Origin: Clostridiaceae bacterium
GTDB taxonomy: Bacteria > Bacillota > Clostridia > Peptostreptococcales > Tindalliaceae
Reading direction: 5' to 3'
Length of the DNA stretch: 64,000 bases
Assembly: GCA_024635995.1 (NCBI GenBank)
Contig: JAGXHW010000022.1
Coordinates: 1 to 64,000 of the forward strand
The number at the start of each line of letters is the position of its first letter. Position 1 is the first letter of the stretch. The notes under the pieces were generated by a model. That model made no database searches. It was not told the DNA's origin and worked only from the letters and a program-made list of their open reading frames with translations. This document shows, piece by piece, positions 5,689 to 64,000 of this stretch. Both the position numbers and the translations under genes were made by a program.

Positions 5689-6294
5689 ATGGTAAATCTT
5701 AAAATATTTTATGACTTTATTTGACCCTATTGTTATCTTGGCAAGGGTCTTGTCAAAGAATTGAAAAAAGAATATCCTCTTGAAATGGAATGGATTCCCT
5801 TTGAACTGCATCCCGGGACATCGGAAGAAGGGTTGCTGCTGGCAGAAAAGTTTGGGGCCAATGATTTCAGGATGAAATTAGTTGACTTGAAGGAACGGGG
5901 CCGCCGCTTTGGTTATGAATACGCTGGTATGGAACGGATGGCCAATTCCCATAAAGCCCTGCTGGCAGAGCTATATGCAGTTGAGCAACAACACGGGGAG
6001 GTTTTCCGCGATGAAGTCTACCATGCTTATTTTGAGGATGGACAGAACATTGGCCAATTAGAGGTGCTACTGGACATTGGAGAAAAAGTCGGCCTGAACC
6101 GTAAAGAGCTCCAGGCTTCTATCCAGGAGACAAACAATGAAATTTTCAAACCCTGCCTGGAACTGATTGATAAATATGAAGTGAACAGCGTGCCAACTTT
6201 TGTGGTGGCAGATCACTATAAGGTAATGGGGTCAGACAAGGAAGACGCTCTTCGTAAGGCCATTGAAAAAGCCATGAAGGAACAATCATCATAA
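5689..6294 (+). CDS. DsbA/FrnE-like thiol oxidoreductase, selenoprotein (UGA = Sec12)
   Basis: DsbA-family protein of the FrnE/2-hydroxychromene-carboxylate isomerase branch, 201 residues if the UGA at 5722-5724 is read through. The frame starts at ATG 5689 after AAGGAAG and gives MVNLKIFYDFI-U-PYCYLGK, so UGA sits exactly where the first Cys of the family CPYC active site belongs. The second Cys (codon 15) is kept. The rest is a normal thioredoxin fold with helical insert and the cis-Pro region NSVPTFVVADHYKVMGS. A stable hairpin (5738-5756) lies where a bacterial SECIS element is required. Without read-through only 11 residues, or an internal start lacking the active site, would be made. 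Selenocysteine is the best explanation. Confidence 0.88.
5738..5756 (+). promoter_or_regulatory. Candidate bacterial SECIS hairpin (DsbA-like gene)
   Basis: TTGGCAAG (5738-5745) pairs with CTTGTCAA (5749-5756), eight pairs including one G-U, closed by the triloop GGU. The loop begins 22 bases after the last base of the UGA. The known bSECIS pattern is a hairpin whose apical loop lies about 16-37 bases after UGA with a G in its first two positions, and this fits. Confidence 0.8.
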
Positions 6295-49312: not shown

Positions 49313-49335
49313 AGAAGTAAGAGGAGGTGGATCAA

Positions 49336-50073
49336 ATGAAAAAGATCTATCCATTTTTAATCGTATTAGTTGTGTTCATTTTTGCGACCATAATGGGATC
49401 CAACAATCCCTTGATGCAGCAAGCAGAGGAAGACCCCAGGATCAAAACCGCTTACCGTGACCAGGCCCATGGCTGAGAAGTCACTTGGCCTACTCTGGAT
49501 GAGATTAGGAACAGTGGAAGTAAAGATGAATCGACACAGGTGGAAACAGAACAGGAAAGTATACCAGTTGATAACATGAAGGTGAAATCGATGACCTTAC
49601 CTCGTGACATTACCTCCTATGACCTTAGAAGACCATGGGACACAACAGTGGGAGATGACCAACACCCCCACCTGGCATGGTTGCCCACAAGGGAAGGAAC
49701 TTTGGAAATGAAAGAGATCGAAAGCTTTCCTGTAGCTATCATCAGTGAGGCCCATGTGAATGACTTGTACCTTCATTATGTCAGGGAAGTGAGAAAGGAG
49801 AAAATTATTTCGGATATGCCGGATGATCTGGCAATACTGGATATTGATATTGAGGACGTTCACACTGCCAAGCATTTCAACCGTACCTGGGTACTGGAAT
49901 TTGACCAGCGCATTTTTGACATACCTAATGAAGAACGCCAGTTATTCCTGGAAGGTTTCACCAAAACATTGCTGGAAGGCAACCCGATTCAGAAGCACCA
50001 GACCAACTTTACCGCCCTCAGGGGTATGACAGGCCAGGTGATTGTGGCAAATTTCAGTGTGTTCCACACCTGA
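49336..50073 (+). CDS. Secreted/membrane-anchored protein of unknown family with in-frame UGA (candidate selenoprotein)
   Basis: One continuous frame of 246 codons if UGA 49474-49476 (codon 47) is read. The N-terminus is a membrane anchor or signal (MKKIYPFLIVLVVFIFATIM) followed by an acidic segment. The UGA sits in YRDQAHG-U-EVTWPTLDEI. After a Ser/Glu-rich linker a domain of about 160 residues follows, with LRRPWDTTVGDDQHPHLAWL, VREVRKEKIISDMPDDLAI and TWVLEFDQRIFDIPNEERQ. Signals are good before the stop (extended -10, GAGGAGG, ATG), and a hairpin at 49489-49509 fits a SECIS element. No Cys is present, so a redox pair is absent. If UGA stops, only 46 residues are made. A TGG-to-TGA nonsense mutation is the main alternative. 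Confidence 0.6.
49489..49509 (+). promoter_or_regulatory. Candidate bacterial SECIS hairpin (secreted protein gene)
   Basis: CCTACTC (49489-49495) pairs with GAG (49501-49503) and, after a two-base bulge, TAGG (49506-49509): seven pairs with apical loop TGGAT. The loop starts 20 bases after the UGA and has a G in its second position, within the usual bSECIS limits. Confidence 0.6.
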
Positions 50074-55963: not shown

Positions 55964-56044
55964 AACCCATCACGAGGTTAGGAATCCTGTTTATGAAAAT
56001 GCATAGAAAATATAATTATTACGTTGGAAAGGGGCTTGGAGAAC

Positions 56045-56794
56045 ATGAAAGCCTACAAAAGTTTGGCTTGGACAGAGAGATTGTTAGCACCACCTGGAGA
56101 CTATGAAGAAGAGGTTCGCATTTACGTGGGAGCTATCAATAAATTGTCTCACCACAAAGCCAAGTCAATGCTTCATCTTGGGTGCGGCGCTGGTGGCCAA
56201 GATCTTTTTCTGAAGGCAGATTTTGAACTTACTGGGGTTGACCTGAACGAAGAGATGTTATCAATGGCACGTAAGGCTAACCCTGAAGTTATCTATTTAC
56301 AGTGAGACATGAGAACGGTGCGCCTGGACCAGCAGTTTGACGTGGTTATTGTTCCCGATTCCATTGCCTACATGAACACTGAAACTGATTTAGAAAAAGC
56401 CTTGGAAACAGCAACGGTTCATTTGAAGCCGGGAGGTATTTTCCTGGTGGTCACTCACATACGGGAAGAATTTCGTAACAATAATTTTGTGTATACCGGC
56501 AATGATGGACAAACACACCTTACTTTGTTTGAAAATAACCACATCATTGGCGAAAATCAGTATGAAGCCACAATGGTTTACTTGATTCGGCAATATGGAA
56601 AACTGTCTGTGGATCACGATGTGCATACCCTGGGAATGTATTCCCATGAGACATGGCTTCGTATTCTTGAACAGAATGGTTTGGTGGTTAAAGAAACGTT
56701 TAACATGGACCATTTGTATGATGAATTTGTGATGGACGGCGGAGAATACAAGCTAAAGGTGTACCTGTGCGAAAAGGAGACAGCGATTAAGTAA
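56045..56794 (+). CDS. Class I SAM methyltransferase interrupted by in-frame UGA (selenoprotein or pseudogene)
   Basis: 249 codons if UGA 56303-56305 (codon 87) is read. Seen: the SAM loop SMLHLGCGAGGQDLFLK, ELTGVDLNEEMLSMAR (acidic residue binding ribose), then NPEVIYLQ-U-DMRTVRLDQQFDVVIVPDSI, where the residue before DMR is usually Gly or a small residue. The rest of the domain continues uninterrupted to 56794 with HLKPGGIFLVVTH and a typical C-terminus. ATG 56045 follows GGAG. Hairpins after the UGA are weak (three to six pairs). Both selenocysteine and a Gly GGA-to-TGA nonsense change are possible. Next gene follows after 23 bases. Confidence 0.65.
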
Positions 56795-60837: not shown

Positions 60838-61209
60838 ATGTCTAACAAAGCTCAAACAGTGGAACGTTGTGATTGCACCGTTATACACGAAGAAGTGGTG
60901 AACAGGGTAATGGGCCGAATGCCGGAAGAAGAGAGGCTTTATGACCTGGCGGAGTTGTTCAAGGTTTTCGGTGACTCTACAAGAATTAAGATTTTGTGGG
61001 CACTTTTCGAATCTGAAATGTGCGTGTGTGATATTGCCTATTTGCTAAACATGACCCAGTCGGCCATCTCTCATCAATTGAGGGTTCTCAAACAGACTAA
61101 GCTGGTTAAAAACCGTAAGGAAGGCAAAATTGTGTTTTATTCACTGGAAGATGAACACATAAAACAGATCTTCGACCAGGGAATGATCCACATATCAGAA
61201 GACAAATGA
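60838..61209 (+). CDS. ArsR/SmtB-family metal-sensing repressor (CadC-like)
   Basis: 123 residues. The winged helix includes ELFKVFGDSTRIKILWALF and the recognition helix NMTQSAISHQLRVLKQTKLV. Four Cys residues stand where CadC-type sensors bind Cd/Pb/Zn: ERCDC near the N-terminus and EMCVCDI at the start of the DNA-binding helix region. It represses its own operon, releasing DNA when metal binds. GAGGTG precedes the ATG. The efflux ATPase follows after 18 bases. Confidence 0.93.
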   Translation: MSNKAQTVERCDCTVIHEEVVNRVMGRMPEEERLYDLAELFKVFGDSTRIKILWALFESEMCVCDIAYLLNMTQSAISHQLRVLKQTKLVKNRKEGKIVFYSLEDEHIKQIFDQGMIHISEDK

Positions 61210-61227: not shown

Positions 61228-63369
61228 ATGGAGAAAAAAACACTTAAACTGGAAGGACTGGGCTGTGCCAACTGTGCTGCAAAAATGGAAGCAAAGATTG
61301 TGTCACTCCAAAGTGTATCCTTTGCTTCTGTTGATTTTGCTTCACAGCGACTGATCCTGGAAACAGACACCAGCAATATAAATGAATTATACAAAGATAT
61401 TGAAAAAATCATATTGGAAATTGAACCCCAGGTTATTGTGAAACATGAAGGGTTGCAACATTCCCTTCCCGTGGGAGAAGTTCACAGTCAAGATCATGAT
61501 CATGGATCCAGCCATTTTAAACAGGATGTAGCAAGACTGATTGTTGGCGGCTCAGTTTTTATGGTTGCATTGGTCTTATCATTGTCACCGACCCTGGAGT
61601 TAGTACTTTTTCTTACCAGTTATGTCATCGTGGGAGGCAGTGTGGTGAAAAGGGCCGTTAAAAACATTCTGCGGGGACACGTTTTTGACGAGCATTTTCT
61701 CATGGCAGTGGCCACCATTGGCGCCTTCCTCATCGGCGAATACCCGGAGGGCGTGGCTGTAATGCTTTTCTACCTGGTGGGAGAACTGTTCCAGGACCAG
61801 GCTGTTGGAAAGTCACGAAAATCCATCAGTGCACTCATGGACATCCGTCCTGACTATGCCAATTTGTTAACAGAAAAAGGAGATTCCAGCAGGGTGTCAC
61901 CTGAATCTGTCAATATCGGTGACCGGATTGTTGTTAAGCCTGGTGAGAAGATTCCGCTTGACGGTATTGTTAAGGATGGGCACTCGCTGGTTGATACCTC
62001 AGCCCTCACAGGAGAATCCATGCCCCGGGAACTGGCTCCGGGCGATGACGCCTTAAGTGGGTTTATAAACCAGAATGGTGTACTGGTCATTGAAGTCACC
62101 AAAGACTTTGGGCACTCAACGGTGTCAAAAATACTGGAACTGGTGCAGCATGCCAGCAGCCGGAAGGCACCTACAGAGAAATTCATTACCAAATTTGCCC
62201 GTTATTACACACCTGGGGTAGTGTTTTCAGCCTTGGCTATCGCATTGATACCTCCATTGGTGATTCAGGATGCCATTTTTTCCCAATGGGTGTACAGGGC
62301 CCTTGTCTTTTTGGTGATCTCCTGCCCCTGCGCCTTGGTCATTTCCATCCCACTGGGATTTTTCGGTGGAATAGGTGGTGCCTCACGTAGAGGCATTTTG
62401 GTGAAAGGAAGTAACTTCCTGGAAGCGTTAAACCAGGTGGAAACCGTCGTATTTGACAAAACCGGCACACTGACAAAAGGCGTTTTTCAGGTGACGGAGA
62501 TCCAACCTGAACCTGGCATTGATAAGGATCAGTTAGTGGAATACGCAGCTTATGGAGAAGTTCATTCCAATCATCCCATTGCAGATTCCATTAAAAAAAC
62601 GTATGGGAAAGAGCTGGACATGCAGCGGGTATCAGATTACGAAGAAGTGGCTGGACATGGGATCAAAGTCAGGATGGATGGTCATTGGATACTGGTGGGT
62701 AACAGAAGGTTGATGGACCGGGAACAGATACATTACCAGGCCGCCGCCGGATTGGGAACAATTGTCTATGTTGCTGTGGATCATGGGTATGCAGGTCACC
62801 TGGTGATCGACGACCAGATTAAGGAGGACGCTGCTGAGGCCATCAGGAAACTTAAATCACTGGGTATTGGGAAGATTGTTATGCTGACAGGTGATTTACA
62901 GCAGGTGGGTGAAGCCATTGGCAGGCAACTCGGCGTGGATGAGGTTTACGCCCAGCTTTTACCGGCTGAAAAAGTTGAAAAATTTGAAGAACTTGATGCA
63001 CAGAAATCAAAAGGGAAAAAAATTATTTTTGTCGGTGATGGGATCAACGATGCCCCTGTTCTCGCTCGGGCAGACATTGGTATGGCCATGGGAGGACTGG
63101 GGTCTGACGCAGCCATTGAAGCGGCTGATATTGTGATCATGACAGATGAACCCTCAAAAATTGTTACGGCACTGCAGGTAGCCAGGCGAACCAGGCGCAT
63201 TGTCTACCAGAACATCGCTTTTGCCATGGGTGTAAAAGGACTGTTTCTGGTACTGGGCGCCATAGGTGTGGCTTCCATGTGGGAGGCCGTATTTGCAGAC
63301 GTAGGGGTGGCACTGATCGCCATTCTCAACGCCATGCGAGTGATGAATACCGGGCACCTAACTCCCTGA
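61228..63369 (+). CDS. P1B-type heavy-metal exporting ATPase (CadA/ZntA-like)
   Basis: 713 residues. N-terminal HMA domain with GLGCANCAAKMEA, then a His-rich linker (EVHSQDHDHGSSH). Membrane metal site CPC in LVISCPCALVISIPLGF, actuator TGES in SALTGESMPREL, phosphorylation site FDKTGTLTKG, HP motif NHPIADSIK and hinge GDGINDAPVL. These fit P1B-2 pumps that remove Zn, Cd or Pb from the cytoplasm. It shares the operon with the CadC-like repressor, so it is induced by its substrates. AGAGGAG precedes the ATG. Confidence 0.95.
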   Translation: MEKKTLKLEGLGCANCAAKMEAKIVSLQSVSFASVDFASQRLILETDTSNINELYKDIEKIILEIEPQVIVKHEGLQHSLPVGEVHSQDHDHGSSHFKQDVARLIVGGSVFMVALVLSLSPTLELVLFLTSYVIVGGSVVKRAVKNILRGHVFDEHFLMAVATIGAFLIGEYPEGVAVMLFYLVGELFQDQAVGKSRKSISALMDIRPDYANLLTEKGDSSRVSPESVNIGDRIVVKPGEKIPLDGIVKDGHSLVDTSALTGESMPRELAPGDDALSGFINQNGVLVIEVTKDFGHSTVSKILELVQHASSRKAPTEKFITKFARYYTPGVVFSALAIALIPPLVIQDAIFSQWVYRALVFLVISCPCALVISIPLGFFGGIGGASRRGILVKGSNFLEALNQVETVVFDKTGTLTKGVFQVTEIQPEPGIDKDQLVEYAAYGEVHSNHPIADSIKKTYGKELDMQRVSDYEEVAGHGIKVRMDGHWILVGNRRLMDREQIHYQAAAGLGTIVYVAVDHGYAGHLVIDDQIKEDAAEAIRKLKSLGIGKIVMLTGDLQQVGEAIGRQLGVDEVYAQLLPAEKVEKFEELDAQKSKGKKIIFVGDGINDAPVLARADIGMAMGGLGSDAAIEAADIVIMTDEPSKIVTALQVARRTRRIVYQNIAFAMGVKGLFLVLGAIGVASMWEAVFADVGVALIAILNAMRVMNTGHLTP

Positions 63370-63407
63370 AGAACCAGATGTTTCTTTTTACAATTGCTGT
63401 CGTTTGG

Positions 63408-63437
63408 GGCTGTCCTGAAAGGAGGACAGCCTTTTTT
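63408..63437 (+). terminator. Rho-independent terminator after the metal ATPase
   Basis: GGCTGTCCT (63408-63416) pairs perfectly with AGGACAGCC (63423-63431) around GAAAGG, followed by six T residues. It isolates the next small gene from the metal operon. Confidence 0.92.
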
Positions 63438-63464: not shown

Positions 63465-63493
63465 TGGTCAAATACTGTTTTATTGTATAGAAT
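63465..63493 (+). promoter_or_regulatory. Promoter of the 27-residue UGA-containing peptide
   Basis: TGGTCA (63465-63470), a 17-base spacer and TAGAAT (63488-63493). Expected start near 63500, followed by AAGGAGG at 63511-63517. Four of six bases match at -35 and five of six at -10. Confidence 0.55.
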
Positions 63494-63528
63494 GTAAGGT
63501 AAGATACAAAAAGGAGGTTGTGATCCAC

Positions 63529-63612
63529 ATGTTTTGAAACCCTAAAGTATCGTTATCGCTGTTAGCGATCGTCATTGTATACGTTATTGTTCGCAGTATG
63601 ACTGGACTGTAG
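63529..63612 (+). CDS. 27-residue single-helix membrane peptide with UGA at codon 3 (candidate mini-selenoprotein)
   Basis: ATG 63529 has its own promoter and AAGGAGG 11 bases upstream. Codons run M-F-UGA-N-P-K, then a hydrophobic helix VSLSLLAIVIVYVIV and a short tail RSMTGL ending in TAG at 63610-63612. If UGA (63535-63537) encodes selenocysteine, it is residue 3, just before the membrane helix. A perfect 6-bp hairpin with triloop GTT (63555-63569) lies 24 bases after the UGA, as in a bacterial SECIS element. No known family. If the UGA were a stop, only two residues would be made. A TGG-to-TGA change in a Trp-containing peptide is the main alternative. glgB follows after 43 bases. Confidence 0.55.
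63555..63569 (+). promoter_or_regulatory. Candidate bacterial SECIS hairpin (27-residue peptide)
   Basis: ATCGCT (63555-63560) pairs perfectly with AGCGAT (63564-63569), loop GTT. The apical loop begins 24 bases after the UGA and starts with G, fitting the bSECIS pattern. Confidence 0.6.
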
Positions 63613-63658
63613 AGCCAGATCCACATAAGCAGAAGAAAAAGGATGAGGGGGAATAATG

Positions 63659-64000
63659 ATGACTGACAAACATAAACAACTGAAAATCCTGGAAATTGAT
63701 CCCTGGCTGACACCTTTTGAAAATGATTTGAAGCTTCGCATGAACCGTTTCGAAAGTGTTAAGAAAGCCTTGTTGGGAAAGGAAACAAAGTTCGCAGATT
63801 TTGCCAATGGTCATCATTATTTTGGTTTTCACCTTGCAGAAGAAGGGTGGTACTACCGGGAATGGGCCCCTGCAGCCGATGGGTTATTTCTCATGGGCGA
63901 TTTTAATGACTGGAACCGTGGCTCCCATCCTTTGACGAAAAAAGAACATGGAGTGTGGGAAATTTTCCTGCCGGGACAAGATGCCCTGCTGCACGAATCC
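63659..64000 (+). CDS. glgB: 1,4-alpha-glucan branching enzyme, N-terminal part (runs off the window)
   Basis: The frame is open to the window edge for 114 codons. It begins MTDKHKQLKILEIDPWLTPFE and continues with a CBM48-type domain: HYFGFHLAEEGWYYREWAPA and LFLMGDFNDWNRGSHPLTKKE, the arrangement of branching enzymes of the eukaryote-like subfamily. GAGGGGG lies 7 bases before ATG 63659 (ATG 63656 also possible). The product forms alpha-1,6 branches in glycogen. Only the first part is visible, so downstream glg genes are not known. Confidence 0.85.
   Translation, partial: MTDKHKQLKILEIDPWLTPFENDLKLRMNRFESVKKALLGKETKFADFANGHHYFGFHLAEEGWYYREWAPAADGLFLMGDFNDWNRGSHPLTKKEHGVWEIFLPGQDALLHES

Follow-up and report, generated by a model that had tools for sequence, protein, structure and literature searches.

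A candidate gene for a 27-residue single-helix membrane selenopeptide with an in-frame UGA at codon 3, conserved in six genomes of one bacterial order

The window analysed here, a stretch of 64,000 nucleotides (contig JAGXHW010000022.1, positions 1 to 64,000), carries near its right end a short frame that opens with the codons ATG TTT TGA AAC CCT AAA and ends with CTG TAG. The upstream neighbour of the frame is a heavy-metal P-type ATPase gene, and glgB follows on the same strand. The elements listed in the original prediction, which read this locus as a small selenopeptide gene (terminator, promoter-like match, AAGGAGG, ATG-TTT-UGA, hairpin, TAG and glgB), were all located at their positions (Table 1). 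The hairpin had been described as a perfect 6-bp stem with a GTT loop 24 bases past the UGA and this is correct, with the loop starting after 23 nt, at the 24th base. For the promoter proposed as the gene's own, a match is present but weak, with a score of 9/12 and three such matches in 400 bp compared to 0.7 expected. An inverted repeat (TTGTAT...ATACAA, window 63484-63510) lies directly 5' of the Shine-Dalgarno sequence and is kept in both genomes of the window's genus.

Table 1. Features of the selenopeptide locus in the window.
Feature	Coordinates	Strand	Observations
Intrinsic terminator downstream of the P-type ATPase gene, left bound of the unit	63406-63433	+	11 pairs, T tail
Promoter-like match, weak (TGGTCA-17-TAGAAT)	63465-63493	+	Surrounding sequence well conserved in G002
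Shine-Dalgarno AAGGAGG	63511-63517	+	11 nt upstream of the ATG at 63529
Candidate selenopeptide gene	63529-63612	+	MFUNPKVSLSLLAIVIVYVIVRSMTGL, stop TAG 63610-63612; orthologues and coding test
In-frame UGA, codon 3	63535-63537	+	Putative Sec; kept in 6/6 members
Hydrophobic helix (predicted), codons 7-21	63547-63591	+	Mean Kyte-Doolittle 2.6 to 3.1 across members
SECIS-like hairpin ATCGCT-GTT-AGCGAT	63555-63569	+	6 bp stem, loop GTT 63561-63563
glgB start (glycogen branching enzyme)	63656-64000	+	Continues past the window end; probably cotranscribed with the selenopeptide gene

Taken alone, the frame of the window could be a product of chance, since the window holds four instances of the same crude pattern (Shine-Dalgarno sequence, ATG, TGA within five codons and 18-60 open codons), the match to a promoter is weak, and single-sequence folding of 63536-63600 is not unusual (z -0.29). 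Rfam at gathering scores and a tRNA scan gave no matches in the window; the Rfam model SECIS_1 (E. coli type) gave none in any genome, controls included, and is therefore uninformative. What raises the selenopeptide above chance is its conservation, seen in five orthologues that share the position of the TGA, in an in-frame coding signature and in two compensated hairpin pairs.

The orthologues were found in four other genomes of the same family and in one genome (G130, presumably Alkaliphilus metalliredigens) of another family of the same order; with the window genome (G000), the six members represent three genera of two families. In a six-frame search reading through stops, identity to the window peptide was 85% in G002, of the same genus, and 65, 46, and 38% in G006, G003, and G004, respectively, which belong to a neighboring genus of the same family. 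G130 was found by profile, with an E-value of 2e-10 for a six-row profile that includes it and of 4.6e-4 for an independent five-row profile. The records matching G002 and G006 are named Clostridiaceae bacterium S18.Bin088 and Tindallia sp. CSSed165cm_299, respectively, and on this basis the window is placed in the Tindallia family. The other five member peptides are MFUNPKVSLSLLAIVIVYVIVRNFIGL, MLUNPKVSLSLLAVLIVYMLVRRFIG, MLUNPKVRILLVAILIIYMSVKHYFGG, MLUNPKARILLVAIIIIYMLAKHYFGV and MLUKSKLMLPLLVVIIIYMVVRSMIG, so that length is constant at 26-27 residues without internal gaps, and M1, U3, K6, L11, I16, Y18, and G26 are invariant across the six. Each member has a purine-rich ribosome-binding sequence upstream of its ATG. 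Loci L012 and L011 (of G004 and G003, respectively) show two extra ATGs just upstream of the selenopeptide ATG in another frame (ATGATGAAATGCTT), which would yield a short competing peptide and are not conserved beyond these two genomes.

The gene is present in five of the seven genomes of the window's family and in one of the 20 of G130's family. Further members were found neither in the genome samples of the class (391), the phylum (398) and the larger order (394) nor among viral contigs and plasmids; weaker matches in the genome samples were rejected as fragments inside longer open frames, as lacking the TGA or as alignments to part of the model. The original prediction had proposed to look in relatives for UGA, Cys or Trp at codon 3 together with the hairpin. 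All six members keep both TGA and a hairpin with a GUU or GGU loop; a Trp codon (TGG) occurs in none of them and no Trp form was found, so that the check which the original prediction had named as its refutation, relatives with Trp at this codon and no hairpin, went the other way. A Cys form did not appear in a genome-wide contig scan with peptide alignment, whose first pattern spelled Cys and which found two of the relatives again.

The distance between the selenopeptide stop and the glgB ATG is 43 nt in the window, with no terminator match between them, and both genes probably share a transcript. The gene also lies 5' of glgB, on the same strand, in the other genome of the genus (G002). In G003, G004, and G006, it is located 3' of a gene encoding a glgX-type debranching enzyme, with a gap of one base in G006, and the next gene downstream encodes a protein kinase or a 113-aa protein. 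In G130, which has neither glgB nor glgX, it is found between an aminotransferase fragment and a downstream gene for a 128-residue protein. The proposed isolation of the unit is thus only half borne out: a terminator closes it on the left, but in the window it probably shares its transcript with glgB, and in three relatives it sits just behind glgX. Within the window's family the selenopeptide is present exactly where glgX is (five genomes with both, G001 and G005 with neither), a distribution expected once in 21 by chance among seven genomes if the two were independent; glgB alone is not predictive, as G001 has it. That the gene lies next to glycogen genes in two different ways suggests a link, but G130, with its other neighbors and neither gene, makes glycogen a hint and not a function, and a connection of the members in the window's family with glycogen metabolism appears doubtful. 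A functional link to the P-type ATPase was dropped, since the two genes are adjacent only in the window's genus and are separated by the terminator.

This arrangement bears on the possibility that the frame is a selenium-sensing regulatory element, in which read-through or stopping at the UGA would control the next gene (glgB in the window) and the peptide would be incidental. Small frames often act in this way, and the short distance to glgB without an intervening terminator would suit such a role. The downstream gene, however, is a different one in the three relatives behind glgX and again in G130, and residues are kept up to codon 26, which is more than a switch needs; we therefore consider this explanation improbable, although slightly less so than the rivals discussed below.

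Translation past the UGA was analyzed by reassigning each observed substitution at random to a site that carries the same base and comparing the BLOSUM62 sum with this shuffled null. For codons 4-26, two sets of independent pairs gave a sum that exceeded the null by 4.5-5 standard deviations, a value reached in none of 4000 shuffles, and for codons 16-26 only, which lie past the hairpin, it was 3.7 standard deviations above; frames +1 and +2 gave -0.5 to +1.3. The dN/dS ratio is below 1 in every pair of members, imprecisely given the short sequences. In G002 there is no ATG, GTG or TTG from codon 4 to the stop, and translation can thus enter its conserved frame only by way of the UGA. By these comparisons of sequences, the frame after the UGA is under protein-level selection. 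This is difficult to reconcile with the UGA being an ordinary stop of a dipeptide frame (ATG-TTT-TGA) and the conserved stretch being an RNA element such as a leader, an attenuator or a binding site. It is true that operons can be preceded by minimal frames, that the hairpin is itself conserved and that the window copy stands in front of glgB; however, an RNA element would not explain a protein-level constraint in only the frame that continues from the ATG, extending past the hairpin and without gaps over 26 codons, at a locus whose downstream gene varies among genomes, and it is very improbable here.

In all members, about 15 residues (7-21) form a hydrophobic stretch that is flanked immediately by a conserved Lys on its N-terminal side and by an Arg or Lys on its C-terminal side, and none of the six contains an acidic residue or a Cys. 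Judged from hydrophobicity, a membrane location is highly probable, and the positive-inside rule does not settle the topology. No helical periodicity of conservation was found across the members (p 0.86), so that no partner-facing side can be named. The size, the single hydrophobic helix and the sporadic distribution would also fit a toxin-like peptide of the type I kind, for which selenium-dependent translation would act as a brake; the absence of any likeness to curated toxin families and the syntenic places of the orthologues beside metabolic genes make this equally improbable as the RNA element.

The hairpin loop is GUU in four members and GGU in two and starts 23 nt past the UGA in each, on a stem of 5-6 bp. 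Two of the seven candidate pairs show a compensatory change, C-G to U-A in G003 and G004 and U-A to C-G in G130. Paired cells amount to 90.5%, compared to 17-69% when the alignment is slid, and a consensus fold recovers the same helix unaided; with six sequences the covariation is modest, and two of five measures (further pair types and both-side changes) are not clearly above shuffles. The bSECIS model requires a loop of 3-9 nt with G in the first two positions, a stem of 4-16 bp, a distance of 16-37 nt from the UGA and an energy of -7.5 kcal/mol or lower (PMC13188914). All six members agree with its geometry, G004 with a stem of 5 bp. As to energy, which depends on the stretch folded, G003 and G130 pass the cut-off, G006 is borderline (-7.4 at best), and G000, G002, and G004 do not reach it; the window hairpin has -5.5 to -6.1 kcal/mol and that of G004, which has lost one outer pair, -2.9 to -3.6. 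The Sec pathway gene selA is present in all eight genomes checked, including those of the six members. Codon 3 is thus very probably read as Sec, by a recoding mechanism that is apparently conventional. The weakest alternative is a real peptide in which the UGA is read as another amino acid (Trp, via suppression or near-cognate read-through): protein evidence alone does not name residue 3, but UGA ends the adjacent P-type ATPase (63367-63369) and ArsR-type regulator (61207-61209) genes as an ordinary stop, it is never replaced by TGG, and the SECIS-like hairpin stands at the right distance in genomes that all have selA, which leaves this reading very little probability.

Other in-frame UGAs lie in the same window, and the remark of the original prediction on two further genes with UGA and hairpin is partly supported. 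One such gene (5689-6291, + strand) encodes a DsbA-like protein with a UPYC motif, MVNLKIFYDFI-U-PYCYLGK, with the UGA at codon 12 (Pfam DSBA, E 3e-26) and a GGT-loop hairpin 21 nt past it; it is likely an ordinary selenoprotein of known kind. The local energy of its hairpin is also only -5.3, so weak hairpins may be normal here. It resembles the selenopeptide gene in its UGA near the start and in the form and local energy of its short hairpin, and differs from it in that the product is a 201-residue enzyme with thioredoxin fold. Two further in-frame UGAs mark candidates. The first, at 49474, is the single break in a 248-codon frame (49327-50070, + strand; RIKTAYRDQAHG-U-EVTWPTLDEIRNSG) that shows a GGATG-loop hairpin 20 nt past the UGA and no Pfam or NCBIfam match. 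The second, at 56303, interrupts a methyltransferase-fold frame (56024-56791, + strand; NPEVIYLQ-U-DMRTVRL), where a simple scan found no hairpin meeting the loop rule past the UGA; this frame could belong to a selenoprotein or result from a nonsense mutation or an error of assembly.

Altogether, the UGA and hairpin kept in six of six members, the protein-level selection after the UGA and the presence of selA in all of them support the selenopeptide reading, and we assign a probability of about 0.87 to 63529-63612 encoding a membrane selenopeptide of 27 residues with a single helix. The ribosome would start at the ATG preceded by AAGGAGG, SelB bound to the hairpin 18-32 nt downstream would deliver Sec-tRNA so that the UGA at codon 3 is read as selenocysteine, and translation would end at the UAG. 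In the absence of selenium, synthesis would stop at the dipeptide Met-Phe, which would make the peptide selenium-dependent by construction. In the membrane, residues 7-21 of the product are predicted to form a single short helix, and the selenol would lie at the membrane surface, on the N-terminal side of this helix. The selenol would have to react with a thiol or a metal of a partner, or with a diffusible thiol, because all members lack Cys.

The original prediction knew of no class of this kind, and we did not find one: three members used as queries gave no family match in NCBIfam 20.0 or Pfam-A up to E = 1, and a 2026 review that lists 119 families and subfamilies of selenoproteins does not include the selenopeptide (PMC13188914). 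Most characterized selenoproteins have a thioredoxin-like fold, and the known prokaryotic ones are mostly enzymes with Sec in a redox motif (PMC13188914). The selenopeptide shares with bSECIS selenoproteins the in-frame UGA, a small hairpin about 20 nt downstream and selA in the host, but it differs from them in its 26-27 residues, its one hydrophobic helix, the position of Sec at codon 3 and the lack of Cys and of any CxxU or UxxC motif (PMC13188914). It is most likely a new selenoprotein family of unusual build. A literature search of open-licence papers found no small or single-helix bacterial selenoproteins. In size and one-helix design the selenopeptide resembles CydX, KdpF, MgtS, and CioY, on which the action proposed here is modelled; to our knowledge, none of these has been described as containing Sec. 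CioY has 34 amino acids and, like CydX, binds a larger subunit of a membrane oxidase (PMC11955535). By analogy, the peptide would most likely serve a membrane protein as a small subunit that is redox-active or senses redox state, and a role in modulating a partner is suggested tentatively. It may also define a new class of selenoproteins, at slightly less than even odds: a free-standing, single-pass membrane peptide without Cys, 26-27 residues long and carrying Sec at codon 3, that acts as a small selenol-bearing subunit or sensor for a membrane partner, whose hosts need not share one pathway.

If the gene is real, it would bring selenium chemistry to the membrane on a minimal peptide and would offer a natural SECIS case in which recoding takes place two codons after initiation. 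Selenoproteomes would then be undercounted, since gene finders discard very short frames as well as those interrupted by a UGA.
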